Source: a virus
Strand: one strand, 5' to 3'
Virus record (IMG/VR): IMGVR_UViG_3300048088_000128
Location: 1 to 21,402 of that record
Length of the DNA stretch: 21,402 nucleotides
The notes below the pieces were generated by a model, which had not been told where the DNA came from, searched no databases, and saw only the letters and a list, made by a program, of their open reading frames with translations. Below, in pieces: positions 1 through 18,463 of the stretch. The stretch's first letter is position 1; the number at the start of each line of letters is the position of its first letter. A program made the translations under genes and the position numbers.

Positions 1-2862
1 GATCGGCACCCGCCCATCGGTGGGCAGGCGTACCGGGTCCAGGCCGAGGATCGAGCTATCCAGCGGCAGGTAGCTGTAGGCCACCGCGTTGAACACGATG
101 GTGCTGGCGAAGGCCGGGTAGGGCTTGAATATTTTGCCCAGTTCGGTCACCGCGCTGGCGTTGTACCAGACCTGCGACTCGTTGCCCGCCGCCGTCACCA
201 TCTGGCCGAAGCGCAGATTGACCACGCCGGTCTGGTAGTTGACCGTGCCGAACACGTTGGTGCCCGAGATCGTGCCATCCGAGTTGGCCGTCACCGTGAC
301 CGTTCCGCCCGTGACCGGAGAGAACTGGATCTGCAGGCTACCAGGTACCACAGGCGCGGCCGGGATGCGGAAGGTGGCAAAGTCAACCGGGGTGCCACCT
401 TGCGTGGTCAGCATCGACAACAGGGTTAGCGTGTTGGTGCTACCCGCATTGAACGTCGTGATGGAGCAGTCGCCGGTCGCATAGTTGATGGTGCCCGCCG
501 CCGTGCCGGCGTTGGTGGACGGATTGAAGTCACAGAGCAGCGTACCCGTGCCGTTGTCGTAGTAGGTCTTGCCACCCCATCCGAATAGGACCGAACCCGG
601 CACGATGTTCTCGGCGTACTGGTACATCAGCTTCAGATTCCACGAGGTCATGGTCACCGTCTGCTGCGTCGCACTGCCTGAGGTGGTCAAGTACTCCACG
701 TCCACTGAGCCGGAGAGGTCATTGGGATAGGTGGCTGCCGCGTCGTAGTACTGGATGCCCTGTAAGACGTTCTGGTAGACCGGATCGCCGTGGGTGAAGC
801 CGATCACACCGTTGCCGATGGCGTTCTTCATGTAGCCGATCAGGCTCGATGAGAACAGCGGTTGAGCGATCTTGACGATGATGTCCGGGGTGAAGGTCGC
901 CGTGCCGGTGGCGTAGTTGACGGCGCCGTTGGTAACCGGGGTAGTGGTGCCGTCTGCGTTGTAGCGCTTCAGCACGCCCGAGCCGTCATCCTGCGCGGTC
1001 ACGTAGGGGTCGGCCTTGAAGTACTGCATCTGCGCAGGGATGTTGCTGATCAGGCTGTAATCGTTGATCAGCACATTCCATGTGACCTTGACCGAGCCAG
1101 GCACAAGATTGGTGTCAGCCACGGTCACCGACAACTTACCGTTGCCGTCGCGGGCCGGCGCGTTGAAATGTTGGGTCTTCTTGGTGCCGAGGTTGTAGTT
1201 GGCGGTGAACACCGTCCCGCTGGCCGTGATAACGTTCGGGCGCATACGCAACTCGTACTGGCCGTTGATCCAGCGCGCGAAGCCAGTGCCATCCCCGGTG
1301 AACTGCTGGGTGGCCGGATTCAGCGTAGCGGTAAAGTTGCCACCGCTACCATTCGGCCACGTCACGGTGACAGTGTTCTGCACCAGTTGCTGACCCGCTG
1401 CCGGCGTGATGAAGAAGCTCACGTAGGGTGCGAACGGGACCGTATTGGAGCGATTGAAGGTGGTGGCCGGCGATGCCCATGTAAATAGGATCGAGGACGC
1501 GTCATCCGGCAGGCTGCCCAAGGTCACGGTCACGGTGCCGGTGGCGTAATTGATCGTGCCAGCGCCCAGCGAGGGGTCCGAGCCCTTGATCGAGCCGCTG
1601 GCACCACCGCCCACATCGGTCAGGGTGTACCAGTTGCCCTGCGACATATAGGACACCGACAGACGACGCGGAGCCGGCGAGGGTACCAGCGTCATCACGA
1701 ACACATTGACCCGGTTGGTCTGGTCGATGTCAATGGCGGCGGTGTTCTGCGGCAGGATCGGTACACCGGCAGGCATCCACGACAAGGTAACGCTGCCCGA
1801 GGTGCCAATCGACTGCGCAACGGTGATCAAGTTGGTCGTGTAGGTCACCGTGCCGACGATCACGCCCGTGGCGGTGACAATCAGGTTGCCCATGCCATCG
1901 TCCGAGGCCGGGCCGAGTACCAAGGTGCCAGGCTTGATAGCGGTCGGCACGTAGATTGTCTGCGCTGCCCCAGTCACCGTCACGGTCTCCGACTGGGTGT
2001 TCGTGCCGGACTGCACGGCTGGATTTGTGGTGCCCGCCGCGCTCAAATTGGTCAGTGGGGTCTGCTGCTGCGAACTTGGCACCAGTTGCGAAAAGATCGA
2101 GGCTGCCTGTATCGAAATGTCGCCCGGATTGGCCGGCGCGGTGACCGGTGCGATCCCGTAATAGTTGGCGGCGTTGGCTACCTGCGTGTCGCGGCAGATG
2201 CAGCCCGCCGACGAGCCAAGGTCCAGCGGTGAGGCATCAGGGCCGGTGAAGGTGTACAGCAACTGCGACGAGATCGTGCAGGTCACCATCACCGCCGTGA
2301 ACGTCGTCGAGGTGTTGCCCACCAATACGGTGAACTGGCGGGTGTTGGTGGTGACGGTCTGAACCCGCACGAACTGCGAGAACTCTGTAGGCTTGCCTTC
2401 ATCCTGGATCAGTACCAGGCTTTGCCCGACCTTGGGAAGCGCATCGCCAACCTTCAGCAAAAGCTGAATTGAACGCTGTCCGGCAAGTTGGATACCCAGC
2501 ACCTGTCCCGGCCATTTCACGCTCTTGGCCAGGTAGCTCTGGATATTGTTGGCAGCGGCGAGGCGCTGGTCGTACCACGACTTGGTGGTGAACATCGTCA
2601 CGCTCACAGCCGGGTCAGCCGGCTCCTTGAGCACAATGGCATGCGCGCCGAGGTAACTGTCCGTGCCGGTCACCTGCACCGAGGGGTATGCCTTGCGCAG
2701 CCCGATACGGCCGTAGACCCGATCCAATTCCGACACGTCCGGGAACAGGTTGTTCGATACCCCGTCCACAACCTCGTTCGCCGTGATTTTTCCGCCACCA
2801 TTGTCGGTGTCGAGCAGGACTTCGGACTGCATTAGCTTGATGTCACCCGATTGGATGGGCAT
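1..2862 (-). CDS. Giant beta-rich phage tail protein (C-terminus off the left edge)
   Basis: The frame is open for 954 codons from the ATG at 2862 to the window edge, so the C-terminus is missing. It starts MPIQSGDIKL, 3 bases after the preceding tail gene, with GGAG upstream. The sequence is rich in Thr, Gly, Val and Asn with alternating hydrophobic residues, as expected of stacked beta domains. A motif of form G-[TA]-[VI]-[NT]-Y-x-T-[GN] recurs at about residues 337, 435, 646, 790 and 872, several times preceded by a PGS/PGT turn and a DDGxGxL-like segment. The visible end reads LDPVRLPTDGRVPI, a segment I associate with siphophage tail-tip or fibre proteins. Its place after tape measure and Dit-like genes fits a central tip, hub or fibre protein that contacts the host surface (inference). 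No enzyme motif was recognised. Confidence 0.85.
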   Translation of the reverse strand, partial: MPIQSGDIKLMQSEVLLDTDNGGGKITANEVVDGVSNNLFPDVSELDRVYGRIGLRKAYPSVQVTGTDSYLGAHAIVLKEPADPAVSVTMFTTKSWYDQRLAAANNIQSYLAKSVKWPGQVLGIQLAGQRSIQLLLKVGDALPKVGQSLVLIQDEGKPTEFSQFVRVQTVTTNTRQFTVLVGNTSTTFTAVMVTCTISSQLLYTFTGPDASPLDLGSSAGCICRDTQVANAANYYGIAPVTAPANPGDISIQAASIFSQLVPSSQQQTPLTNLSAAGTTNPAVQSGTNTQSETVTVTGAAQTIYVPTAIKPGTLVLGPASDDGMGNLIVTATGVIVGTVTYTTNLITVAQSIGTSGSVTLSWMPAGVPILPQNTAAIDIDQTNRVNVFVMTLVPSPAPRRLSVSYMSQGNWYTLTDVGGGASGSIKGSDPSLGAGTINYATGTVTVTLGSLPDDASSILFTWASPATTFNRSNTVPFAPYVSFFITPAAGQQLVQNTVTVTWPNGSGGNFTATLNPATQQFTGDGTGFARWINGQYELRMRPNVITASGTVFTANYNLGTKKTQHFNAPARDGNGKLSVTVADTNLVPGSVKVTWNVLINDYSLISNIPAQMQYFKADPYVTAQDDGSGVLKRYNADGTTTPVTNGAVNYATGTATFTPDIIVKIAQPLFSSSLIGYMKNAIGNGVIGFTHGDPVYQNVLQGIQYYDAAATYPNDLSGSVDVEYLTTSGSATQQTVTMTSWNLKLMYQYAENIVPGSVLFGWGGKTYYDNGTGTLLCDFNPSTNAGTAAGTINYATGDCSITTFNAGSTNTLTLLSMLTTQGGTPVDFATFRIPAAPVVPGSLQIQFSPVTGGTVTVTANSDGTISGTNVFGTVNYQTGVVNLRFGQMVTAAGNESQVWYNASAVTELGKIFKPYPAFASTIVFNAVAYSYLPLDSSILGLDPVRLPTDGRVPI

Positions 2863-2865
2863 TCT

Positions 2866-3264
2866 TTAAATCTCCATGAGTCGCAGGGTGACAAGGAACC
2901 AGTCGCCATCAACCACGTCGCTGTAATGCACAACGGGCTTGGCTTCGACCCCTGCGCCGTCCTGATGTCGGAAGATCACGGTGCGAGCCTGCCCGCGCAG
3001 TGTAAGAGTCATCTGCTGCCCTGCGACTGCGGCCCAATTTCGCAATTGATCCTTCGTCGCCCCATTCATCCAGGCGCTCGAATCGTCTTCGGGCTCAAGC
3101 GTGATCGGGCGGCCGGCGAGCCGCGTGGCGCTGCTCACGATGAGCGCCCCCGTGAGGGTCCGCTGCACGGTCTGCTCGACCGGGTGCCAATTGTTTTCGT
3201 CGGACCAGTACAGGTCCGGATGCAGATCGATGGATGTGGCGCCTACCGCCAGGGTGATGCTCAT
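2866..3264 (-). CDS. Minor tail protein, distal-tail/gpM-like
   Basis: This 132-residue protein starts at an ATG overlapping the tape measure stop by 4 bases (ATGA), so it is translationally coupled, and ends 3 bases before the giant tail gene. It has no signal peptide or membrane segment. The body has alternating beta-type strands and a segment GRPITLEPEDDSSAWM followed by a helix (KDQLRNWAAV), a pattern seen in small distal tail or minor tail proteins coded just after the tape measure in siphophages. By position it matches lambda gpM, which sits where the tail tip meets the tube. The family is inferred from position and fold-like features rather than a clear signature, so it could instead be another small tip protein. 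Confidence 0.7.
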   Translation of the reverse strand: MSITLAVGATSIDLHPDLYWSDENNWHPVEQTVQRTLTGALIVSSATRLAGRPITLEPEDDSSAWMNGATKDQLRNWAAVAGQQMTLTLRGQARTVIFRHQDGAGVEAKPVVHYSDVVDGDWFLVTLRLMEI

Positions 3265-7070: not shown

Positions 7071-7159
7071 GGCGGCCCGCAGAGAATGATGATGTAAGTG
7101 AGCGTTAGCGCCCTCACCGCGCGCCCAAGGGCGAGTGCCCCGGGCGTGCGCTTACCGCT
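7071..7159. other. Structured gap between tail tube and tape measure genes
   Basis: These 89 bases lie where most siphophages carry the tail assembly chaperone pair. No ORF of useful length is present. The gap has GC-rich inverted repeats, including cgccc/gggcg at 7122-7133 and gtgag/ctcac at 7098-7117, with no following T-run in the direction of transcription, so it is not a classic intrinsic terminator. Its right end has a short stretch (CGCCCGGGGC on the minus strand) that only weakly recalls the 18-bp repeat found in other gaps. Confidence 0.5.
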
Positions 7160-7952: not shown

Positions 7953-7985
7953 ATCGCCACACTGGCACGGTGGAAGTGTGGCGAT
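7953..7985 (-). promoter_or_regulatory. Strong hairpin just upstream of the tail tube ribosome site
   Basis: The arms atcgccacact (7953-7963) and agtgtggcgat (7975-7985) form a perfect 11-bp stem with an 11-base loop. In the transcript the hairpin ends a few bases before the GGAG used by the tail tube gene. No U-run follows, so it is unlikely to be an intrinsic terminator. It may shield the tube message from decay, serve as a processing site, or affect translation (inference). Confidence 0.6.
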
Positions 7986-7999
7986 CCGGGGGTCTACAC

Positions 8000-8017
8000 G
8001 CCTGCGGGGGAATTTCG
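8000..8017 (-). repeat. Post-stop intergenic repeat, copy A
   Basis: The minus strand reads CGAAATTCCCCCGCAGGC directly after the TGA of the gpU-like gene (0-base spacing). It matches 17 of 18 positions of copy B. The perfect 11-bp hairpin at 7953-7985 begins 14 bases downstream in the transcript. Confidence 0.75.
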
Positions 8018-8476
8018 TCAGGGGTTCGTCAGGTCTTCGGTGTAGAAAACCGTGATATGGATGCCGGCGAACACCATGCCGGCGCCGTCTTCGCGCGCAC
8101 CCATGACGCGCCCGCGGTAATTGAGCGCCCGCACTTTTCCGTTCAGGCGCAGCCCGTGCTTCGGCTCCCCTGAGAAAATCGCGCGCTTCAGGTCGGCGAT
8201 CATCAGGTGTGCCTTGTCGTTCGGGTTATCCGGATCGCAGAAATCATGCGACTCGAACAAATACGCCTGCTCAATACCGACGCTTGTGAGGTTGTCGTCG
8301 GTCTTCGGCGAGTCGTTCCCCTCGACCAGAATCACGCACGGCAGGTGCGCTTCTTCGTCCAGGCGGCGCTTGCCGCGGAACGTATGCGTGCCGATGTCCG
8401 TGGCGTAGCCGTTCGCCTTGGTGATCGTGGCGATACGCGCGACGAGTTCTCCCGCGATCTCGCTTGCTTTGCTCAT
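8018..8476 (-). CDS. Minor tail / tail completion protein, gpU-like
   Basis: This 152-residue protein overlaps the preceding gene by 4 bases (ATGA at 8473-8476). It starts MSKASEIAGELVARIATI and has a mixed alpha/beta layout with LPCVILVEGNDS and a beta strand HITVFYTEDL near the end. This resembles tail terminator or completion proteins that cap the tube and join it to the head. The order Z-like, U-like, tube is the same as lambda Z-U-V. Lambda gpU has 131 residues, so size is compatible. The family is assigned mainly by order and fold-like features. The stop is followed at once by repeat copy A. Confidence 0.7.
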   Translation of the reverse strand: MSKASEIAGELVARIATITKANGYATDIGTHTFRGKRRLDEEAHLPCVILVEGNDSPKTDDNLTSVGIEQAYLFESHDFCDPDNPNDKAHLMIADLKRAIFSGEPKHGLRLNGKVRALNYRGRVMGAREDGAGMVFAGIHITVFYTEDLTNP

Positions 8477-9174
8477 TCCATTGCCTTTTTCAGTTCATCG
8501 GCCGTGAGCGTCACAACGGTCTTGCTCAGGCGGTCCGCCACGTCTGCTAGGAACGTGGTGTCCAGCGCGGCGCGGAACAATTGGTAGACCGATGGGCCAT
8601 ACAGCACCTCGATCTTGCGGCGTGTCCCCGGAACGCGCTTGGCGGTCAGTAAATTGCCGTTGCGCCCACGGATGACGAACGCATAACTGATCGGCTTGCG
8701 GCTGCCGCGCGTCACCTCGACGGAGAGGCCCGCCTGCTTCATATTGACCGGGATGCCACGGCTCTCATCGCCCGTGCGGAGCTTCCAGGGGAGCATTGCG
8801 CCAGCCTTGCGGGGGTTCTTCCCCATCGTGCCAGAGGTGAACGAGCCATTCGGGAACCGCACGGGCTTCGTCAACTGCTGTGCACCGTAGCGTGTCAGCG
8901 TCGAGTGCTCGCGGCGCGCGGTAACCACGGCAGTCGGCTTCACGGTGTCCGTGGCCGGCGTGAACGACATATTCGCCTGCAGATAGGCATCTGTCAGGTT
9001 GATACCCTCGTTCATCTTCTTGCGGGCATCATTGAATGCTTGCTCAGCGACAGTATTCACCGCCGTCATCGCGGCGCGGCCGAGCGCGGCACCGTCGATG
9101 CGGCCGAGCGACTGCGCGACCTCTTCGACCGCAATGGTATCGACGGTGACCGAGAAGCTGCTGAGACGTGCCAT
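8473..9174 (-). CDS. Minor tail protein Z-like
   Basis: This is a 233-residue protein with the ATG at 9174, chosen because GGAG lies 6 bases upstream. A GTG one codon earlier is possible. The text fits the prophage minor tail protein Z family: a helical N-terminus (LGRAAMTAVNTVAEQAFNDA), LTDAYLQANMSF, a basic middle, then LYGPSVYQLFRAALD and a C-terminal helix. Lambda gpZ (192 residues) acts in tail maturation and helps join the tail to the head. The gene starts on the last bases of the FII-like gene (TGATG) and overlaps the gpU-like gene, so the three are coupled. Confidence 0.82.
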   Translation of the reverse strand: MARLSSFSVTVDTIAVEEVAQSLGRIDGAALGRAAMTAVNTVAEQAFNDARKKMNEGINLTDAYLQANMSFTPATDTVKPTAVVTARREHSTLTRYGAQQLTKPVRFPNGSFTSGTMGKNPRKAGAMLPWKLRTGDESRGIPVNMKQAGLSVEVTRGSRKPISYAFVIRGRNGNLLTAKRVPGTRRKIEVLYGPSVYQLFRAALDTTFLADVADRLSKTVVTLTADELKKAME

Positions 9175-9485
9175 CACGTGCTCCGGAGGACATACCGCGC
9201 GGTGTATCCGTTCTCTTCGAATGGGGGCGAGTCGATTGCATACGACTGCGCGGGGATCGGCATACCGGCAGCGTCGACAAACACCAGGGGGTCGCCCATG
9301 CGAGGCTTGAGGGACTTCAGCATCGTCGCCACCGAGCGGGAATAGACCATCTGCCCGTCATTTCCGGCGATTTCGACGTTGTGCTCGATGTTCACTCGGC
9401 ACACCTCCGCAGTACGCAAAACCGCATCCTCACCCAATCGAGCGAGGATGCGGTCCGCGAGGCGGTTGAACGCGCTCAGTGCCAC
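9174..9485 (-). CDS. Head-tail connector protein, FII-like
   Basis: This 103-residue protein starts at a GTG (9485) 4 bases after the capsid gene stop; no strong ribosome site is seen, so coupling to capsid translation is likely. The N-terminus is a helix (FNRLADRILARLGEDAVL) followed by beta-type segments (VCRVNIEHNVEI, DPLVFVDAAG, YTARYVLRS). This matches the small connector coded right after the capsid gene in lambda-like phages (lambda FII, 117 residues), which completes the head and offers the tail-binding surface. The assignment rests on size, position and predicted shape; sequence signatures in this family are weak. Confidence 0.65.
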   Translation of the reverse strand: MALSAFNRLADRILARLGEDAVLRTAEVCRVNIEHNVEIAGNDGQMVYSRSVATMLKSLKPRMGDPLVFVDAAGMPIPAQSYAIDSPPFEENGYTARYVLRST

Positions 9486-9489
9486 GCGA

Positions 9490-10485
9490 TTACGAGATCG
9501 AAAGCTCGATCAGCGCATCCGGGCGGGTGCAGAAGGTGATCGGGTTCGACTGCGCCTCGATCTCCACGCCCTTGTTGAACTCCTTGAGTTCCTGCTTGGC
9601 GTAGTACGGCAGGCCGACAGTGTTCACGGTCTCCATGTAGTCGGCCGGTGCGTAGGTCGTGCTGAAGAGGTCGGGTACGCCTTCCGGAACCATATGCGCC
9701 TTACCGTCCGCAATGAACGGCTGGCCGCTGATGTTGCCGCGGTACTCTTCCCAGAACACACCGCCCCACATGAAGCCGCCGCGCAAGTCTTCCTGGAGCT
9801 TGGCACGATCCTGGAAGTTGTCATAGGCACGCTGCACGGCAGGGTGATCGACGAAGGCGTCGAAGAAACTCGCCGAGCACAATGTGCGGATGCTGCGGTA
9901 TCCTAGGCCGCCGAGGTTCACTTCCATCGTGCGCTTGGCGCCAACGACCAGCGAGCGCAACTTGGTGGCATCGACGTTCAGCGCGAGCGCCTTGGTGACC
10001 TTGCTGAGGCCGAAGGTCTGGAAGAGGTCGAGCAGCACCGAGCCGTCCGCGTCCAGAATCTGCCCCTTGACGGCACCCATGCGCTGCCACTCAATCGTGG
10101 TATCGATGTTGCGACGCAGCTTCACCAGACGCTTGTTCACCAGGGACATGACGGTCATCTCGTCCGTCTCGCTGCCGAATGCACGCACGTTCTGCACCTC
10201 GTCGGCGTTGATGGTCGCGCGCTGTGGCAGGTGGACGGCCGGCAGGGGCACGACCTTGCGCTTGTCCGGACCAACGGGCTTCGCGGGCGCACCGCGGGCG
10301 CCGGATGGGACCAGGCTGATCGTGGTGCCCTCGCGCTCAATCATCAGCGATGTGGTGGTGACGCCCTCTTCCGAGAACCAACCGAGCTCGCCGAGTCGCT
10401 TCGGTTCATACGGGACATCATTGATCGCCTTGGTGAGCGACACGACGCCGAAGGCGTCATTCTGGAAAATATCGAGTGCCGGCAT
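9490..10485 (-). CDS. Major capsid protein, lambda gpE family
   Basis: This 331-residue protein is close to lambda gpE (341). A strong ribosome site AGGAGAACC precedes the ATG at 10485. It starts MPALDIFQNDAFGVVSLTKAIN and has GELGWFSEEGVTTTSLMIE, LPAVHLPQRATI and FWEEYRGNI, all in the style of this HK97-fold family. It forms the icosahedral shell, stabilised by the decoration protein coded just before it. The 39-base gap to the gpD-like gene contains the ribosome site and nothing else visible. Identity is firm. Confidence 0.94.
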   Translation of the reverse strand: MPALDIFQNDAFGVVSLTKAINDVPYEPKRLGELGWFSEEGVTTTSLMIEREGTTISLVPSGARGAPAKPVGPDKRKVVPLPAVHLPQRATINADEVQNVRAFGSETDEMTVMSLVNKRLVKLRRNIDTTIEWQRMGAVKGQILDADGSVLLDLFQTFGLSKVTKALALNVDATKLRSLVVGAKRTMEVNLGGLGYRSIRTLCSASFFDAFVDHPAVQRAYDNFQDRAKLQEDLRGGFMWGGVFWEEYRGNISGQPFIADGKAHMVPEGVPDLFSTTYAPADYMETVNTVGLPYYAKQELKEFNKGVEIEAQSNPITFCTRPDALIELSIS

Positions 10486-10524
10486 GTTGCGGTTCTCCTG
10501 AAATTGGGTTGTCGTTGCCGCGGC

Positions 10525-10872
10525 TTAGTCGCGGACGATGATGCCGACGGCAGCGAGGTCTACGCGAGCCGGCGCATCCAGACCGACCAAGGCGTAGGAA
10601 GCGACTTCAGCCTGGCGGGCGACGATGGTGACTTTCTGATCAACTGCCAGGTCGGGGGCGTGTGCGTACAGAATTGCGACTGCCGTTTCGGTGCCGTCCG
10701 AATTCGTGTTGACATAGGGCGCGTACTTGCCGCTGGCGGTGATCTTGCCAAGCAGCGTGCCGGGTGCGAGGTCCGCCGCTGCAGCGGCCAGGGTGACTTG
10801 CTCGCGGCTGTAGCTATCCTCATCGTCCAGCAGGAACTCAGCCGTGTGCAAGCCTTCGGTGTACATCGTCAT
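10525..10872 (-). CDS. Head decoration protein, lambda gpD family
   Basis: This is a 115-residue protein (lambda gpD 110) with a near-consensus ribosome site AAGGAGTTGAGTC before the ATG at 10872. It has the familiar order of gpD: an N-terminal arm ending FLLDDEDSYSREQVTL, then APGTLLGKITASGKYAPY, AVAILYAHA, KVTIVARQAEV and a C-terminal segment LAAVGIIVRD. Trimers sit on the capsid at local threefold points and stabilise the expanded shell. It lies between the protease/scaffold and capsid genes, as in lambda. Confidence 0.93.
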   Translation of the reverse strand: MTMYTEGLHTAEFLLDDEDSYSREQVTLAAAAADLAPGTLLGKITASGKYAPYVNTNSDGTETAVAILYAHAPDLAVDQKVTIVARQAEVASYALVGLDAPARVDLAAVGIIVRD

Positions 10873-10883
10873 GACTCAACTCC

Positions 10884-11945
10884 TTATTGAGATGCCTTGT
10901 GGCGCGCAGCCCAAATGCCAGATGCGCTCACCGCCTCGGGCTGCGCAGCCTTGGCGGACGGATTCTTGGAACGGGGGGTCGTGTCGATCTGCACCGACTC
11001 GTCTTGGGCAGCACGACGGTTGACCAGGTTCTCGCGGGCCTTCTCGACAGACATTCGCGCGACAATGAATGCCGCCGCGTCATCGGGCCGCTTGGCAAGC
11101 GCGCACAGCGCCTTGATCTCGCGGGCTTCCTCGATACGGGCTTTCACGTCGCCGATGTCGGCAGTGGCAAGCGCCCAGTGCGCGGCGAAGTCCGCCAGGC
11201 CGGCTGCCGTCGCCAGCGCGAGCACCTGATCTGCAATCGGCGTGGCGGCCGCAGCGGCAGCGGCTTCGGTAGCGGCAGTTGCGGCAGCAGCAGAAGCGGC
11301 TTCGGCGGCGGCCGCAGCGGCAGCAGCTTCAGCCGCGGCGGGGTCAGCGGCAGCCTTGAACACCGCCTGGATGTCCGCCGGCAGGCGGTCCAGTTCAAAT
11401 GCCGCAGTGACCTTCAGGGCCGGCTCCACCTCGTCGGCGAAACCCTGTGCGACCGCTTCCTCGGCGCTCAGGTAGGTTTCCGCGTCCAGCAGCGCCTTCA
11501 CATCGGCCTCGCTGCGACCGGTGCGCGCGACATAGGTGGCGACCAACGACGCACCCACCTTGTCAAGCACGTCGGCCATATCGCGGAGGTCGACCGCGTT
11601 GCCGAACATCCCGGCGAGCGGGTTGTGCACCATCATGAAGGTGTTTTCCGGCATGACGCGCTTGTCGCCGACCATTGCCAGCAGGCTCGCCGCGCTCGCC
11701 GCGATGCCCATCACCCGGACCGTGATCTGCGCCCCAGTGGCACGCAGGGCGTTGTACATCGCCAGGGCATCGAATACCGAGCCCCCCGGCGAGTTGATCG
11801 AGAGCGTAAGTTGCTTCACGTCGCCGATCGCCTTTAGGTCTGCAATGAAGCTCTTTGCGGTGACGCCCCATGCGCCGATCTCGTCGTAGACGGAGATTTC
11901 GGCGCGCGCGTCGGCTTTGGCGATGATCTGGTACCAGGTCTTCAT
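10884..11945 (-). CDS. ClpP-like head maturation protease with probable scaffold tail
   Basis: The true start is the ATG at 11945 (MKTWYQIIAKADARAEIS), preceded by AGAGGACTGCC, giving 353 residues. Residues about 15-175 are a ClpP/crotonase-type serine protease: LSINSPGGSVFDALAMYN, GIAASAASLL with the probable catalytic Ser84, and FMMVHNPLAG with His107. The third position aligns near Glu156 (ETYLSAEEAVAQGFAD), where ClpP has Asp. Residues about 198-235 are an Ala-rich linker, then a helical 118-residue C-terminal part. No separate scaffold gene lies before gpD, so this C-terminal part probably serves as scaffold, as in lambda gpC/Nu3 (inference). It cleaves itself and other head proteins during capsid assembly. 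Confidence 0.9.
   Translation of the reverse strand: MKTWYQIIAKADARAEISVYDEIGAWGVTAKSFIADLKAIGDVKQLTLSINSPGGSVFDALAMYNALRATGAQITVRVMGIAASAASLLAMVGDKRVMPENTFMMVHNPLAGMFGNAVDLRDMADVLDKVGASLVATYVARTGRSEADVKALLDAETYLSAEEAVAQGFADEVEPALKVTAAFELDRLPADIQAVFKAAADPAAAEAAAAAAAAEAASAAAATAATEAAAAAAATPIADQVLALATAAGLADFAAHWALATADIGDVKARIEEAREIKALCALAKRPDDAAAFIVARMSVEKARENLVNRRAAQDESVQIDTTPRSKNPSAKAAQPEAVSASGIWAARHKASQ
11241..11354 (-). repeat. Alanine-codon-rich low-complexity tract in the protease gene
   Basis: About 38 codons here are nearly all Ala, with a few Glu, Ser, Thr and Pro, giving GCC/GCG/GCT-rich near-repeats that stay in frame. The tract separates the ClpP-like domain from the C-terminal helical part and is probably a flexible linker. 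Such tracts vary in length between relatives and can confuse assembly. Confidence 0.75.
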
Positions 11946-11978
11946 GGCAGTCCTCTGAATAATGCGGATTGTGGTTTT

Positions 11979-12010
11979 CCGCAAGGCATACTGCCTGCGG
12001 GCGAATTTCG
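11979..12010 (-). repeat. Post-stop intergenic repeat, copy B, with hairpin
   Basis: The minus strand reads CGAAATTCGCCCGCAGGC (11993-12010), 2 bases after the TGA of the 91-residue gene. Its last bases form one arm of an inverted repeat at 11979-12000 (CCGC/GCGG and AGGCA/TGCCT, one bulged base, 3-base loop). It sits in the 67-base gap before the protease gene. Confidence 0.75.
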
Positions 12011-12012
12011 TA

Positions 12013-12288
12013 TCAGTTGAACGGGTGTTCTGCCCAGCCCTTGATCCGGGCCCATGAGTACATCGCAAACCCGCCGAGCATGCCGATCCAAGACAGCGGG
12101 CGGGCGATCTTGCCGATGATCTCCAGGGTCTTGAACGCACCCTTCGCCGCGCGGAAGGCATCGATCAGGTCAGAGGTGTTGTCCTCGATGCGCTTCGTGC
12201 GCTCTTCCACTATCCCGACTCGCTCGGCGAGCGCAGAGAAGTCCTGCGCATCGGGGTGACGGAAAGCATTGCCGTAGTCGTCTTGCAT
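12013..12288 (-). CDS. Small membrane-associated protein between portal and protease
   Basis: This 91-residue protein starts MQDDYGNAFRHPDAQDF, 3 bases after the portal stop. Residues about 20-45 form a charged helix (VEERTKRIEDNTSDLIDAFR). Residues about 56-80 (IIGKIARPLSWIGMLGGFAMYSW) are a likely membrane segment. A short coiled coil followed by one membrane helix resembles XhlA/holin-associated or small prophage membrane proteins. Its location inside the head gene cluster is unusual for a lysis gene, so the function is left open. The gene is followed by repeat copy B. Confidence 0.7.
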   Translation of the reverse strand: MQDDYGNAFRHPDAQDFSALAERVGIVEERTKRIEDNTSDLIDAFRAAKGAFKTLEIIGKIARPLSWIGMLGGFAMYSWARIKGWAEHPFN

Positions 12289-12291
12289 CGA

Positions 12292-13785
12292 TCACCCCTT
12301 TTTCGTTCCCGGATACTGGCCGGGGCCCGTATCGTCGGCCGGATGCGCTGCACCAGGTTGCGGCGCAGAGATTGGCAGGCCGAGTTCTTCGGCTCGCTTA
12401 AGGTCTGCCGCGCGCTCAGCGTCCACCGTCTCGGGGTCATCCCCGCGCTCGGCGATGACGCTGGACCGCGACCGGAAGCCGCTATCGACTTCCATCTTCT
12501 TGCCCTGCACGTCCTGAACCGGATGGATGTACTGCCAGCCGTGCGGCGCCCACTCGACTGCGGCAGCCTCACCGATGACCGGCCTAGGGATTGCGTCAAC
12601 CAAGGCGGCCTGATCGACCCATGCATCGCGCACGCGCTGGCAGAACATAGGAATGAGGACGTGCCACTGGCGTTGCTCAGCGAAGCGTCGAAACTCTTGG
12701 ATGATGACGCGCAGGGTCCGGTCGGACACGTTGATGATGTCGCCGGAAAGCACTTCGTAGGGAACACCCTGACCCGCTGCTGTGGCGATATGCTGCGTGC
12801 GCATGTACTCGCTGTATGTCGTGCCAGCGTCTGGCGGGCTTGAGAACACGGCCTTCTCGCCTGGCATCAGCTCCTGCGAAATACCCGGCTGCAGGCCGGC
12901 GAGCGGCATACCGTCCGCACCATACTCAATGAGTTGCCCGCTGAGCGTGTCAACACCGTCAGCCCCAGCTGCCGGCATCGCCTTCTCGATGAACAGCGCG
13001 AACAGGTTGGCCAACTTCTGGCGCTCCAACACGGCGTCGTCGAAGTCGGCGACATTACGCAGGCGCGCGAGGACGGAAGCGAACTCGGGCACGCCGCGAA
13101 GCTGGCCGGGGCGCTTCGGCTCGTAGATGTGCAGCATCTCGTCGGCTGGCACGCGCACCAGGTGCGACTTGTCAATCGTTTCCGAGGTGAAATCGGTCGG
13201 GTGCGCGCGGTAGACCCAGTAGGCGACGCGGGCGCCGATGCGATCAAGCTCGACGCCTTGGCGGATACGGTTTCCGGTCGGCATGCCGGGCCAATAGTCC
13301 GAATCGAACTGCGGTGCGAAGTCGGATTCGATCACCTGGATTTGGAAGGGCACTTCCATCGAGCCCTTGCGCCGGTAGCGCAGGCGCACGAACACCTCGC
13401 CCGACTCGATCCATGCGCGGGTCACCATCGCCTGCTGCCCGTAGAAATTGAGCACGCCATCGGCATCAGACTGTTTGACCCATCGGTCCCACAGTTCTGT
13501 GACGGCCGTTTTCAGTTCCTTGTCGGTGATCTTCTTGGCGCGCGGCACAATGCCGGTGCCGATGAGGTTCGTCACCCACCGCTGTGCGCCTGCAGAGGCG
13601 GTCCAGTCGTTCCGGCCGGCATCGCGCGCCCGGTCGCGTACCTTCGTGGCAGACAGCAGCACCCGGTTCGGGCCGGCGTTGGGGGCATTCCAGCCGCGCA
13701 TGCGCCGGCCGTTGCCGCCCGCGTCGTAGCGCGCTACGATCTGCGCGACCTGGCGTGCGATGGCAGTCTTGAGGCGACCGATCAT
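12292..13785 (-). CDS. Portal protein, lambda gpB family
   Basis: This 497-residue protein (lambda gpB 533) starts at the ATG at 13785, which overlaps the stop of the gpW-type gene by one base. It has the family's N-terminal pattern: RMRGWNAPNAGPNRVL, then LLSATKVRDRARDAGRNDW and NLIGTGIVPRAK. The middle contains DEMLHIYEPKRPGQLRGVP and a later YSEYMRTQHIATAAGQGVPYE, both typical of lambda-type portals. The C-terminal tail is hydrophilic. The protein forms the dodecameric ring at one capsid vertex through which DNA enters and to which the connector attaches. Identity is firm. Confidence 0.95.
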   Translation of the reverse strand: MIGRLKTAIARQVAQIVARYDAGGNGRRMRGWNAPNAGPNRVLLSATKVRDRARDAGRNDWTASAGAQRWVTNLIGTGIVPRAKKITDKELKTAVTELWDRWVKQSDADGVLNFYGQQAMVTRAWIESGEVFVRLRYRRKGSMEVPFQIQVIESDFAPQFDSDYWPGMPTGNRIRQGVELDRIGARVAYWVYRAHPTDFTSETIDKSHLVRVPADEMLHIYEPKRPGQLRGVPEFASVLARLRNVADFDDAVLERQKLANLFALFIEKAMPAAGADGVDTLSGQLIEYGADGMPLAGLQPGISQELMPGEKAVFSSPPDAGTTYSEYMRTQHIATAAGQGVPYEVLSGDIINVSDRTLRVIIQEFRRFAEQRQWHVLIPMFCQRVRDAWVDQAALVDAIPRPVIGEAAAVEWAPHGWQYIHPVQDVQGKKMEVDSGFRSRSSVIAERGDDPETVDAERAADLKRAEELGLPISAPQPGAAHPADDTGPGQYPGTKKG

Positions 13786-14006
13786 CAGTACCCCCGCCCG
13801 CTTTGGTAGAGCAAGGTGCGGCGACGCTGCGGCGTACCGCTGGCCTTGGCATCTGCGATCGCCTTTTGCTGCATCAGGTCGTTTCGCGCCTGAATCATCT
13901 CGGCGATGCTGTAATACGTGATGCTCTGGCTGCCGAGCGTGACCCGCCGCTCGCCCGAGGCGATGGCCGTGTTCAGCGCATCAATGTCCGTTTGAGTGAC
14001 TGGCAT
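13785..14006 (-). CDS. gpW-type head-tail joining protein
   Basis: This 73-residue protein is near the size of lambda gpW (68). The ATG at 14006 (MPVTQTDIDALNTAIASGER) has AGGTG upstream; longer in-frame starts lack support. It carries the two-helix plus hairpin pattern of the family, with RRVTLGSQSITYYSIAEMIQ and the helix ARNDLMQQKAI. gpW binds the portal after packaging and forms the binding site for later joining proteins. The order terminase large, W, portal matches lambda A-W-B exactly. Confidence 0.9.
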   Translation of the reverse strand: MPVTQTDIDALNTAIASGERRVTLGSQSITYYSIAEMIQARNDLMQQKAIADAKASGTPQRRRTLLYQSGRGY

Positions 14007-14052
14007 GCGGCGTGCACCTGTGGATAGAAGCACGCCGATTGTGCTGTGGGGT

Positions 14053-14080
14053 CCGCAGCCCCGCCTGCGGCCAGATTTCG
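14053..14080 (-). repeat. Post-stop intergenic repeat, copy C, with hairpin
   Basis: The minus strand reads CGAAATCTGGCCGCAGGC (14063-14080), 2 bases after the TGA of terminase large. An inverted repeat CCGCAG/CTGCGG (arms 14065-14070 and 14053-14058, 6-base loop) shares the last bases of the repeat. It lies in the 76-base gap before the gpW-type gene. Confidence 0.7.
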
Positions 14081-14082
14081 CC

Positions 14083-16224
14083 TCAGCCCAGGTACGGGGA
14101 CCGAGCAACGCGGCGCCGGGCGAGCTGCGGGGCCGTCTGTGACGTGCCGGCCGGCGCGGGAGGCACGGGTTCGTTCGCCTTCATCTCACGCCGATCCTCG
14201 GTCGTGATGACCTCGCTGTTCTCGGCCAGAGGGCGGGCCCAGGTGGGCGTAAGGTGCATCTCACCCCATTTCAGCTTGTCTAGTCCCAGGCGCAAGCAAC
14301 CGGCGCGGATGTACGCCGCGAGGTCCAGCGCTTCATTGCGCTTGCGCACCTGCGACCAGGTACCGCTCGGCATCCGCACCTCGGAGCGGAGCAGCTCATC
14401 GAAGAACGCCTGCGCCGGCCACTTCGGCAGGTGGATGTAGCCGGGTCCGGGCGACTGGCGCTTGAGTCCGGTCCATACCGCGTCTTTCAGCAGGTTCGGG
14501 TTCAGGTTGTAGAGCGGCACGTCGCCCTCTTTCCCGTTCTTGCCCCCGACCATCGACTCACGGATCATCGGCGCCGTGCGGGACGATGCCCCCTTCACCA
14601 GCATGATCCGCTGGGCGTACCCCTGCCGGCGCATTCGCCGGTACCAATCGTAGGCCTTGTCGGTGACGCCATCCTCGCCGCCCGAGTCAACCACGGTTAA
14701 CTTGACGCGCAGTTCCTTCCCCTCGACGCTGGTGCGGTACGTCGCGCGAACGATGCGCTCGGTCAGCAAATCCCAGTCCTCTGCATAGGATGCCGGATCA
14801 ATCGGGGCCATGCCGCCCATCCCCTCGCGCGCCGACTCCGTGATGTTGTAGCGGTCCACGGGCCACTGCTCGAGATGCGGCCCAATCGCGTGCACTTGCA
14901 CGACGAAGCGCGCGTTGGTGCCGCCCTGCACGTCCACCGAGGCAATGAGGCACCGCGCCTCGTCGGGGACGACGTACCGTTCAAGCGCCCCATCCTTCCG
15001 GCTCTCCGGGTCGTTCGTGTCCGCGGCGGCGTTCGCCAGGTGCCGACTCATGTACGGCATACCCTGGTCCACGTTCGTCGTGTTCTTCAGCGGCTCTTCA
15101 TCGGCGCTGAGCTCGTACTGGCGGAGTGCCTGCAGGTAGCGCAACAGCAGCGACTTCCACGACTGGAACGCCGCGGCGACACCGCCGAGCCAGTAGCCGG
15201 CAACAGGTGATGTGGTCGCATCGCCGATGATCTCGTCGTCGGCGGTGATCTGCGCGCCATCAGGAAGCCAGATGCCGCTTCGGTTGAGTTCAGGCTTCCG
15301 CTTGGGCAGATGGATCGAGCCGCAATGCGGGCAAACGATGAAATTGTATTGGTCGGCCAGCGCGTTGATATCGCCCTCGCGGGCCATCTGACCTAATTGG
15401 TCCCCGGGCGGCAGGTTGAACAGGCCGAGCCCGGGTTCTGCCTCGAACCACTCGCGGCAGTCGAGGCACTTCCAGTACCAGCGGCGCCGGTCACTGCCGT
15501 TGTACAGGCCCAGGATGCCATTCGTAGGCGGCGCCTCGTGCGGCGTTGCCGGCCGCCAGTTGGGGTCGGTCAGGTCGCGGCCCGGGGACGACTCGGCCAG
15601 GGCCATGCCGCGGCTCATGAACGTGGTAGTACGCTTCAGCCCGAGCGGGAACGGCGCGCCCTCCCCCCCGATGTCGTCCGGCATCCGGTCCAGGTCGGTG
15701 AAGGCGACGTAGCGGTAGGTCGAGCCCGACAGGTTGGAGACAGTCGGCCAGCCGATCTTGAGCCACATGCCATGCTTGAACTGCTTGTCATGCACGGTGT
15801 CGTCCTGGCTCGACCTGCTCTTCATCTTTTCCAGGTTTGGGGAGTGCCGGAGCGCGCGGTCGATGTCCGTCTTGCTGAACTCGCGGGCTTTGTCCTGCGA
15901 CATCTGGACGAACAGCATGTCACCAGGGTCGTTGACGACGGCATGAGCCATCCAGCCGAGCAGTAGCGCGGCCGTCTTGCCGGTCCGCGCGGGCCCGACG
16001 AAGATCGTCGCTTCATGGCGCCGGCTGGCGAGCATGTTTGTCGGCTCAACCATGTAAGGCGTTTCGTCGGCGGACCATGGCATCGCCGGGCCGCCGGTCT
16101 GCTTGATGATCAGATTCTGAGCCGCCCCCTCGCTGACCGTGACCCGCTTCGGCGGACGAAATGCGGCATATGGACTGATGACATCGGCCAGTGCCACATC
16201 GTAATGCTCAGAATCCTCAAGCAT
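14083..16224 (-). CDS. Terminase large subunit, GpA family
   Basis: The likely start is the ATG at 16224 (MLEDSEHYDVALADVISPY), overlapping the small subunit stop by 8 bases, for 713 residues; an upstream in-frame ATG at 16275 lies deep in that gene. The ATPase half has the variant P-loop GPARTGKT (residues 77-84) and a Walker B-like segment VAFTDLDRM (173-181). Two CxxC pairs (253/256 and 298/301) suggest a metal site. The nuclease half has Asp431 in SVDVQGGTNARF and Asp513 in VVDSGGEDGVTDKAYDWY. It cuts the concatemer and drives DNA through the portal. All visible key residues seem present, so it looks intact. Confidence 0.95.
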   Translation of the reverse strand: MLEDSEHYDVALADVISPYAAFRPPKRVTVSEGAAQNLIIKQTGGPAMPWSADETPYMVEPTNMLASRRHEATIFVGPARTGKTAALLLGWMAHAVVNDPGDMLFVQMSQDKAREFSKTDIDRALRHSPNLEKMKSRSSQDDTVHDKQFKHGMWLKIGWPTVSNLSGSTYRYVAFTDLDRMPDDIGGEGAPFPLGLKRTTTFMSRGMALAESSPGRDLTDPNWRPATPHEAPPTNGILGLYNGSDRRRWYWKCLDCREWFEAEPGLGLFNLPPGDQLGQMAREGDINALADQYNFIVCPHCGSIHLPKRKPELNRSGIWLPDGAQITADDEIIGDATTSPVAGYWLGGVAAAFQSWKSLLLRYLQALRQYELSADEEPLKNTTNVDQGMPYMSRHLANAAADTNDPESRKDGALERYVVPDEARCLIASVDVQGGTNARFVVQVHAIGPHLEQWPVDRYNITESAREGMGGMAPIDPASYAEDWDLLTERIVRATYRTSVEGKELRVKLTVVDSGGEDGVTDKAYDWYRRMRRQGYAQRIMLVKGASSRTAPMIRESMVGGKNGKEGDVPLYNLNPNLLKDAVWTGLKRQSPGPGYIHLPKWPAQAFFDELLRSEVRMPSGTWSQVRKRNEALDLAAYIRAGCLRLGLDKLKWGEMHLTPTWARPLAENSEVITTEDRREMKANEPVPPAPAGTSQTAPQLARRRVARSPYLG

Positions 16225-16603
16225 CGTTGGGCCCCATCCGCTCGAAGACATCCGCCAACTCGCCAAGCGCTTCATCGATATGGCGGCCGACCTCTTCCGC
16301 TACCTCTGGCGCCAGGGCAACGCGGCGCTCGAGGTGATCGGGCAGGGAGCGCAGGGTCTGGGCGATAGTCGCGTATGCCGTCGCGGTGGCCTGGATGACC
16401 GCCGCGCGGGAGACGTACTCGCCGCTCTTGATCTTAAACTCCAGCTCGTTCAGGTCAGCCTTTGCCGACTCGTTGCGCGCCCGCGCCTCATCGAAGTCCT
16501 CGATCGCTTCAGACTTCACGTAGTCCTTGGGCTTCCGGCCGGCGCCGGGCCGTGCCCCGCCGTGCCCGTTGCCACCCCTGGATGTCTCGATGGGCTCGCT
16601 CAT
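16217..16603 (-). CDS. Terminase small subunit-like DNA-packaging protein
   Basis: This is a 128-residue protein with the ATG at 16603 (MSEPIETSRGGNGHGG), overlapping the preceding gene by 4 bases. The N-terminus has the basic, Gly-rich GGARPGAGRKPK segment common in terminase small subunits. A long helix follows (EARARNESAKADLNELEFKIKSGEYV), then SRAAVIQATATAYATIAQTLRSLPDHLERR and a C-terminal helix, a layout seen in GpA-associated small subunits. It would recognise the packaging site and recruit the large subunit. Direct overlap with terminase large supports the role. A longer ORF in this frame reaches upstream, but only as a shadow of the previous gene. Confidence 0.82.
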   Translation of the reverse strand: MSEPIETSRGGNGHGGARPGAGRKPKDYVKSEAIEDFDEARARNESAKADLNELEFKIKSGEYVSRAAVIQATATAYATIAQTLRSLPDHLERRVALAPEVAEEVGRHIDEALGELADVFERMGPNDA

Positions 16604-16863
16604 GCCAAGCCGTCCTCGTGAGCGGGTTGATCTGCGGCCGGCGCATTGGAATTGACGGCTGCCGCCCCCTGAAGCCATGCATGGAGTTCAACCGCGCGCA
16701 CGAACAACATCCCGCGACTTCCCAGTCGCAACAGTGTGAGGGGTGCCTCGCCGCGCTTGATAGCTGACTCCAGCAAGTCAGGGGAAATGCCGACCAAAGC
16801 AGCCGCCGCGGCGATTCTGTAGAGCCCGGGCGGTGCCGACGCGGCAACTTGATTTCGGTCCAT
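16600..16863 (-). CDS. Small helix-turn-helix DNA-binding protein
   Basis: This 87-residue protein opens the morphogenesis operon and overlaps the terminase small gene by 4 bases. The segment YRIAAAAALVGISPDLLESAIKRGE looks like a helix-turn-helix of the MerR/excisionase type, followed by a wing-like LLRLGSRGMLFVRAVELHAWLQ. It may be a second DNA-packaging recognition factor (Nu1-like DNA-binding domain) rather than an excisionase, because it is coupled to terminase (inference). No clear ribosome site precedes the ATG at 16863. Confidence 0.72.
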   Translation of the reverse strand: MDRNQVAASAPPGLYRIAAAAALVGISPDLLESAIKRGEAPLTLLRLGSRGMLFVRAVELHAWLQGAAAVNSNAPAADQPAHEDGLA

Positions 16864-16885
16864 GGCGCCAATGCTGCTGTTATGG

Positions 16886-16914
16886 GGCGCCTCGGCGCCT
16901 GCGGGCGGATTTCG
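16886..16914 (-). repeat. Post-stop intergenic repeat, copy D, with inverted repeat
   Basis: The minus strand reads CGAAATCCGCCCGCAGGC (16897-16914), 3 bases after a TAA triplet at 16918-16920. Two adjacent GGCGCC palindromes (16886-16891 and 16894-16899) follow. It lies 34 bases upstream of the first morphogenesis gene. The gene to which the TAA belongs, if any, is not clear. Confidence 0.7.
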
Positions 16915-17295
16915 GAGTTAAGGAATAGCTTTCGGGGTTATGCCGGTGGATTGAGGGCCAATGGCGCCCTGCCGGGGCCAATCTGGGCTGGCCATCCTCA
17001 CTGATTCAAGATTGGAAATACGAAAAACTCTCGAAGATCGCGCCTCTTCGGCCCCGCACGTTGCCCAAGCCCGTCAGGGTCCCCCGCGCCCGCCGCGCCC
17101 CGCCACCCGACACTCCCGGCCAGGCAGCCTGCACGCAGCGGATCGCTGTGCCGCAGCATGTCGATGGCCAGCGCCTCATTGACCAAGGGCGCAGCCGTCC
17201 CTCCCTGTGAGCGCAGGCACAGGCAAGGCAGAGTCACATTGATCAAGCATGCGCGAGGGGTGTGGCTGTGGTGGATAGCCAAGCAGCACTACGCC

Positions 17296-17518: not shown

Positions 17519-17850
17519 CGGGTCACCTCGCGCACCATCGTGGCGAAAGCACTATGTGCTGGCGCGCCCTCTCCCTCTTGGTAAGGTGCCGGCTTGTACA
17601 GAGTGATACGCGCCACGGCATATCGCTCACCACGCTCGAACCCGAGCCCACGGTATAAGCGCATCGCTTTCTCAGCCCCTTCGCGCCCCGGATGTCCGCC
17701 ATCCACAAGCTTGGGGTTGCCGTACTGGTCGAGCTCGGCGAGCCACCACGCCTCCCCGATGACATCCCGGCCGGCGCCTTTACCGCAAACTTCGGCACGT
17801 GCGTCGTTAGCCAATTTTCGGTAATTGGCCTTTCCCTCGATCTTCGACAC
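17515..17850 (-). CDS. Hypothetical phage protein, 111 residues
   Basis: The start is a GTG at 17850 with a good ribosome site (AGGAG, 6 bases upstream). The protein begins SKIEGKANYRKLANDARAE and is soluble, with EAWWLAELDQYGNPKLVDGG, AEKAMRLYRGLGFERGERYAVARITLYKP as its most structured part. No catalytic motif or family signature was recognised. It is coupled to the 33-residue gene downstream. A small accessory function in the early/middle operon is all that can be said. Confidence 0.75.
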   Translation of the reverse strand: MSKIEGKANYRKLANDARAEVCGKGAGRDVIGEAWWLAELDQYGNPKLVDGGHPGREGAEKAMRLYRGLGFERGERYAVARITLYKPAPYQEGEGAPAHSAFATMVREVTR

Positions 17851-17863
17851 TGGTAACTCCTAA

Positions 17864-18001
17864 TTACCCGGAATCAGGTCTTCCACATCGCTCAGCCCGA
17901 CGGTCGGCGCGGTCTTCTAGCACCTCAATGATTCGGTCCACCGCATGGTTATCGGTCGCTGTGGCGGGAACATAAAGGGTTAAGCAGCCTTTTTTTGGGG
18001 G
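17864..18001 (-). pseudogene. In-frame Mor-like extension or relic after the mor-like stop
   Basis: Directly after the TGA of the Mor-family gene the same frame stays open for 45 codons to a TAA at 17864. It contains LYVPATATDNHAVDRIIE, which repeats LYVPATATEDHAVARLIG inside the Mor-like protein, with different codons. No ATG, GTG or TTG in a usable place and no ribosome site is seen for separate translation. The junction is TGA-C, then CCCCC and AAAAAAA runs. It may be a decayed duplicate, a readthrough extension, or a gene whose start was lost by an indel in the homopolymers. Confidence 0.5.
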
Positions 18002-18463
18002 TCAGGCGAGAGGCAGTAGGAGCTGTGCCGGATGGCTGATTGACTCGCGGCGGGCAGCCTTGGCTGTGCCTCGTGGACTGCGGGCTCGCGTACGCACGAG
18101 CAACAGGATCAAACCCGTCTGCTCTATCCTGGTGCGCAGCTGCTGCACCCGGCGCTCGGTGATACCGAACTCGGCGGCGATCTCGCGCGGACCGGCGCCG
18201 CATCCCAGCCGTTCGGCGATTAGGCGGTCTCGCCGGTCCATCTCTTCTAGGTGTCCACCAGGAACCGACAGCGTCGTGCCGCCGTATTCAGACACCAGCC
18301 GGCGGAATGCGGGAAGACCGATCAGTCGGGCTACCGCGTGGTCTTCTGTTGCGGTAGCGGGTACATAGAGGTTCGCGCCGCCGAACCAGGCGACCAGCCG
18401 CGAGGTGGCGGTGTAGCCAATCTCGGCTGCTACATCCTCGAGGGTGCCGTTTGCCCGCTCCAT
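18002..18463 (-). CDS. Mor-family transcription activator
   Basis: This 153-residue protein has two GG-x-x-[LV]-x-VP motifs, FGGANLYVP (27-35) and YGGTTLSVP (60-68), then a helix-turn-helix at about 89-112 (GPREIAAEFGITERRVQQLR). The second motif plus the helix-turn-helix lines up with phage Mu Mor (LGGGQVYIP followed by LTTRYGVTFNTVYKAIRR), which activates the middle promoter as a dimer. The first motif is an added copy. The last 40 residues are a basic extension. No Q-type antiterminator is visible, so it may switch on the late genes from the gene-poor region downstream (inference). The ATG at 18463 lies 6 bases after the membrane-protein gene and has a modest ribosome site. Confidence 0.85.
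   Translation of the reverse strand: MERANGTLEDVAAEIGYTATSRLVAWFGGANLYVPATATEDHAVARLIGLPAFRRLVSEYGGTTLSVPGGHLEEMDRRDRLIAERLGCGAGPREIAAEFGITERRVQQLRTRIEQTGLILLLVRTRARSPRGTAKAARRESISHPAQLLLPLA

Follow-up and report, generated by a model that had tools for sequence, protein, structure and literature searches.

In phage Mu, the activator Mor has a 16-bp element at -51 to -36 of a promoter with a -10 but without a -35, contacts RNA polymerase alpha and sigma and, as C does, binds dyads (PMC4287176). Mu C serves four late promoters, i.e., lys, I, P, and mom (PMC4461284). In phage lambda, Q works by antitermination at one late promoter. Short repeats are also known from mycobacteriophages, where start codons and translation signals accompany the start-associated sequences of cluster K, and the stoperators of cluster A are repressor sites.

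We have analysed a viral DNA stretch of 21,402 nt (IMG/VR record IMGVR_UViG_3300048088_000128), hereafter the window. Its minus strand carries a lambda-type late operon, which starts with the terminase small subunit, a GpA-type large subunit and the head-tail adaptor, continues with a lambda-family portal, a ClpP-type protease, decoration protein D and major capsid protein E, and also has tail genes, the major tail protein and the tape measure protein. Upstream of the late operon there are a Rha/ANT antirepressor, NinB, and a Mor-family protein of 153 aa. The closest sequenced relatives are Cupriavidus prophages, Curvibacter phage PCA1, and Acidovorax phage ACF1.

Near-identical 18-mers are repeated along this operon. 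We propose, with a probability of roughly 80%, that the 18-mers are those halves of activator-dependent late promoters to which the activator binds, and that the Mor/C-type protein would be this activator. The proposal builds on what can be read from the sequences, i.e., the site, the -10, their fixed spacing and orientation, the conservation in the same gaps, and the phage-wide variants.

18002..18463, minus strand: Mor-family activator gene, 153 aa, the proposed site-binding protein

Compared with Mu C and Mor, the likeness consists in a small phage activator of the Mor/C family (here a predicted one), several late promoters per genome, and a site upstream of and overlapping the -35 region with a non-consensus -10, Pm of Mu being likewise without a -35 (PMC4461284, PMC4287176). 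At our locus, the site of ~16 bp would lie just upstream of the -35 region and overlap it, and the -10 comes without a -35. On the other hand, the operator here is asymmetric whereas the Mu type is dyad-symmetric, packaging and head genes are of the lambda type in these phages with the activator at the place of lambda Q, and the promoters lie in the gaps between late modules, one being intragenic. With lambda, the same late gene order is shared, and the regulator gene follows NinB, at the place of Q; however, the gene at this place is Mor-like, and there are five promoter-like sites rather than antitermination at one promoter. With the start-associated sequences of cluster K, the common feature is a short boundary repeat in many gaps, but the repeat here is tied to a -10 hexamer.

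Five copies of the repeat on the late strand

The sequence-only reading had reported the near-identical 18-mers in four gaps, and they are real: all four lie on the minus strand, i.e., the late strand of the window, exactly where they had been placed. They are not all copies, as a fifth had been missed. It was picked up by a profile scan (19.9 bits vs. 11.2 for the next candidate), reads 3042-3025 inside gene 2866-3264, and is conserved in relatives.

16897..16914, minus strand: predicted activator site 1, CGAAATCCGCCCGCAGGC, preceding the first late gene; equivalent place in L124, L125, L126, L127, and L152
14063..14080, minus strand: predicted activator site 2, CGAAATCTGGCCGCAGGC, in the gap between the terminase large subunit and the head-tail adaptor
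11993..12010, minus strand: predicted activator site 3, CGAAATTCGCCCGCAGGC, preceding the ClpP-type head protease
8000..8017, minus strand: predicted activator site 4, CGAAATTCCCCCGCAGGC, preceding the major tail protein
3025..3042, minus strand: predicted activator site 5, CGAAATTGGGCCGCAGTC, within the CDS of gene 2866-3264, upstream of gene 1-2862

When 3 mismatches are allowed, 3 sites are found in the window vs. 0.08 expected. The gapped form CGAAATN4CCGCAGGC recovers exactly the four reported copies, all of them late-strand, and has no match on the opposite strand. With the -10 included (CGAAATN4CCGCAGN22-23ANNNT), the late strand has five matches and the opposite strand zero, while ~0.0002 are expected. 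These observed and expected counts rule out a chance repeat in the window.

The repeat had also been tied to stop codons, and this link breaks down, as one copy follows no gene and one sits inside a gene. Actually, no plausible gene terminates at the TAA before the 16897 copy: upstream, the nearest gene end is 600 bp off, and downstream, this copy is followed after 33 bp by the first late gene. The stop-codon spacing is a by-product of the compact gaps in the late operon. Similarly, the statement that nearly all late-operon gaps over 60 bp are filled is right for three of the four intra-operon gaps, but the 89-bp gap at 7071-7159 has no copy.

A -10 hexamer at fixed spacing

The common layout is CGAAAT-N4-CCGCAG(GC), followed after 19–20 bp by a sigma70-type -10 hexamer, NANNNT. 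Such a hexamer is present at all five window copies, with CACAAT, CACACT, and TACACT as examples.

16871..16876, minus strand: -10 of promoter 1, CAGCAT, assigned by position and the spacing rule; predicted RNA start near 16864
14038..14043, minus strand: predicted -10 of promoter 2, CACAAT
11968..11973, minus strand: predicted -10 of promoter 3, CACAAT
7975..7980, minus strand: predicted -10 of promoter 4, CACACT
2999..3004, minus strand: predicted -10 of promoter 5, TACACT

In the terminase relatives, allowing at most 1 mismatch in 12 and without choosing by the -10, we have found 81 distinct sites on the late strand vs. 5 on the other strand; as the phages are drawn from one terminase clade, these sites are not independent. 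In 77 of the 81, the distance from the 18-mer to the start of NANNNT is 20 or 21 bases, while the background for other pairs of adjacent offsets is 7–8% on average. For exact cores the proportion is 54/54 distinct sites, all on the late strand and with NANNNT at one of the two adjacent spacings. Hexamer positions 4/5, which were outside the selection, show A in 80% and A/C in 87% (100 sites). In IMG/VR, the full pattern with its -10 occurs in 50 stretches, three in several contigs, and the reversed control pattern gives 8 matches, one per contig.

No -35 hexamer is conserved in the site alignment. Ordinary sigma70 promoters with a -35 were rejected as well, since a consensus scan picks up 0/5 window sites. 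If the -10 is taken to end at -7, the 16-bp core spans about -50 to -34. This is the geometry of the Mu Mor promoter, which argues for activation of the host sigma70 polymerase. Both half-sites are near invariant in 88 sites (selected with at most one mismatch). Two operator models were tried and dropped: for a dyad, CGAAAT and the reverse complement of CCGCAG agree at 1/6 positions only, and a direct repeat (CGNA, period 11) suits the standard class but fails for PCA1 and for G033, a phage with a diverged Mor-like protein.

The -10 sits 6–9 nt before the ATG in 5/5 cases for the first late gene and at ~14/32 sites for the head-tail adaptor gene, which predicts transcripts with little or no leader there. 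In the window, an RNA start near 16864 would leave the gene at 16863 with next to no leader.

The coupling to the -10 bears on a repressor reading, in which the copies would be stoperators by which a phage repressor silences the late genes in the lysogen. Asymmetric sites in gaps with a single orientation would suit it. However, the sites are few, lie mostly at the starts of late modules, and are coupled to a -10, which stoperators do not require, and we regard this reading as scarcely credible.

It also bears on the idea that the repeat acts in RNA, as a hairpin or a processing or decay-control site after stop codons. Indeed, CCGCAGG forms the 5' arm of a hairpin in many of the protease gaps (mean z -1.35) and in some of the tail gaps, and in PCA1 the hairpin arms have changed together with the site. 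Nevertheless, there is no hairpin excess at the head-tail adaptor, first-gene, and intragenic sites (mean z -0.09, -0.26, and +0.37, respectively), four core bases vary freely while the -10 spacing is fixed, and Rfam gives no match in the window. This makes an RNA element highly improbable. The inverted repeat that had been described at each copy is enriched at the protease gap of the relatives only, and as a common feature the hairpin had to be abandoned for a gap-specific one. The second half-site forms the hairpin 5' arm at some sites, e.g., window 12003-11978, L127 14230, and L254 3251 and 8629, and such hairpins could possibly have an extra RNA role in read-through transcripts. Overall, RNA processing, antitermination, decay control, or a recombination linker, all of which had been offered as functions, find no support; what is constant is the distance to the downstream -10 hexamer.

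Conservation in relatives and phage-wide variants

Among the terminase relatives of 76–95% identity, whose gaps were checked as far as each sequence reaches, the element occupies four places: it precedes the first late gene, the protease, and the major tail protein, and it follows terL. It is also present in relatives at 54–65% identity. In total, 25 of the 31 records searched have the pattern, which is co-oriented with the late genes in nearly all phage records, while the backwards-read control pattern is near zero in phage records. It had been said that relatives lacking the element in the same gaps would refute its role; the relatives do have it there, so the view of a conserved and apparently functional boundary element of the late operon is borne out. 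The proposed check in a host genome agrees: of the 7 exact CGAAATN4CCGCAG matches listed for Cupriavidus yeoncheonensis, 5 are in a prophage.

In the phages with diverged activators, the sites have changed throughout the genome. In PCA1, CGTTG replaces CGCAG at six places, the intragenic one included (CCGCAG to CCGTTG). G020 and G011 have CGCAAT or CGCAAA as the first half-site, and a metagenomic phage has CCGGTC as the changed site. The promoter geometry is kept in these phages.

On the other hand, control relatives are without the sites. Phage mEp460, a relative by its terminase family with an annotated Q-type late regulator, lacks both a set of sites on its late strand and a close activator. 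Site set and close ortholog are likewise missing from a Vibrio phage, an Aliivibrio phage, and other terminase relatives. L134 shows a single match, on the opposite strand, and no activator. L200 and L133 have no more than a weak Mor-like ORF, which follows terL. This ORF lies directly after terL at 12073-12387 in L200, 4958-5296 in L133, and 2604-2945 in L135, and none of the three has sites.

Of all copies, the intragenic one is the cleanest test, as its synonymous bases are kept while the surrounding codons drift. Its codons CGA AAT TGG GCC GCA GTC keep 17–18 of 18 bases in 8 of 9 relatives, two of these eight being identical at the locus, while codons for the same residues elsewhere in the gene share the third base in just 45–74%. 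Its -10, CTTACACT, is likewise conserved. In PCA1 the locus reads CGAAATCTGGCCGTTGTA, so that the protein is altered, with CAG to TTG as at its five other sites; in G020 and G011 it has CGCAAT, matching the other sites of each. Sites within a clade are not independent, but simple inheritance is disfavoured by the silent-site conservation, the phage-wide variants, and the relatives that lack the sites.

The Mor-family gene as candidate activator

The product of 18002-18463 matches PF08765 with 34.2 bits (curated cut-off 24.9) and phrog_836, 'late transcriptional activator', with an E value of 1.3e-20. Its AlphaFold model has a modest pLDDT of 69, and residues 70–130 alone matched HTH proteins in the PDB. 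Sequence and fold searches of the PDB did not return Mu Mor, which is uninformative either way. Among the eight motif phages compared, this is the sole non-packaging, non-structural window gene in common, and orthologs are found in every motif phage in which the region upstream of the late operon is clearly present. Two long records with sites, G009 and G014, have no Mor-like match, and these records may be incomplete. We infer that the Mor-like protein is the binder and that transcription starts at these promoters.

As a half-blind test, phages were gathered by the Mor-like gene alone. The Mor-like protein of one of them, G033, is 33% identical, and G033 is without the standard core. Instead, the site in front of its protease gene and of its tail genes, i.e., of the major tail protein, can be written as CGAAATTGTCCGGTCG or CGAAATTGTCCGGTCGG, and TAGACT and TATACT follow as -10 hexamers at the spacing seen elsewhere. 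The remaining Mor-like loci of this collection show no standard sites, and some of them contain little late sequence. By-eye inspection of the distant Mor-like phages Suso and B23 revealed no matching motif. B23, an Alteromonadaceae phage (L343), is Mu-like with a Mor-like gene and has dyads CTGAA-N4-TTCAG at about 10140-10300 and 17610-17895, ~25 bp before TAATCT/TAGTCT and with an ATG close to each; judged by eye, these dyads probably mark Mor/C promoters of its own.

In G033 the recognition helix, SERRVQQICREL, matches that of the standard-site phages, yet the second half-site differs, which does not support the recognition helix as the sole determinant of specificity. One helix earlier, all nine standard-site proteins start with a conserved Glu ([RK]E[IV][AS]), which is replaced in PCA1, G020, and G033; from these few sequences, it may be taken as a lead on specificity.

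Since the recognition helix does not follow the second half-site in G033, one may ask whether the copies are late promoters of which all or part of the core is read by another protein, be it a further factor of the phage, a regulator of the host, or an alternative sigma factor. The asymmetry of the core, whose halves vary separately between phages (CGCAAT with CCGCAG; CGAAAT with CCGTTG), would also fit. But no second regulatory window gene is common to the eight motif phages, a host factor leaves the phage-wide change at all sites unexplained, and the -10 is sigma70-like, which speaks against an alternative reader of the promoter. Another reader thus seems rather unlikely to us, and the Mor-family protein stays the preferred one.

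Between the activator region and the late operon there is one more feature.

17032..17050, minus strand: terminator-like hairpin; a similar sequence lies upstream of terS in PCA1

Many contigs of the relatives begin 480–850 bp upstream of terL, which suggests a cos near 17050-17032. Also upstream of terL, L160 has an array of 15-bp tandem repeats at 2634-3010 (TAGTCCTGCATGGTC and variants).

Discussion

According to the proposed mechanism, the Mor/C-type protein is probably made before the late period and would bind at about -50 to -34, where the 16-bp core CGAAAT-N4-CCGCAG offers it an asymmetric site. The bound activator would then recruit the host sigma70 RNA polymerase to a weak NANNNT -10 located 19–20 bp on, with no -35. 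The five promoters, at the first packaging gene, the head-tail adaptor, the head protease, the major tail protein, and within a tail gene, would turn the late modules on jointly, with each module boosted locally. The particle-building genes would thus probably be switched on together, by a layout conserved across dozens of related phages.

It also seems fairly likely that these phages make up a widespread clade of lambda architecture, whose late genes are driven from several Mor/C-type promoters with a non-dyad operator, and in which three or more genome-wide changes of operator specificity have taken place that extend even to the intragenic site. Our searches of the open-access literature turned up no account of this promoter, and the late promoter layout is apparently new to it.

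If true, this would provide a concrete late-gene switch for a large phage group, with hosts in the Burkholderiales and elsewhere, to which the lambda Q model does not apply. With activators and operators that vary in a natural series, the protein-DNA specificity of Mor/C proteins would become testable, and the dual-coding promoter would show cleanly how a regulatory signal can constrain a protein. In addition, the rule of core, 19–20 bp, and NANNNT would mark late promoters in uncharacterised phage genomes from sequence alone.
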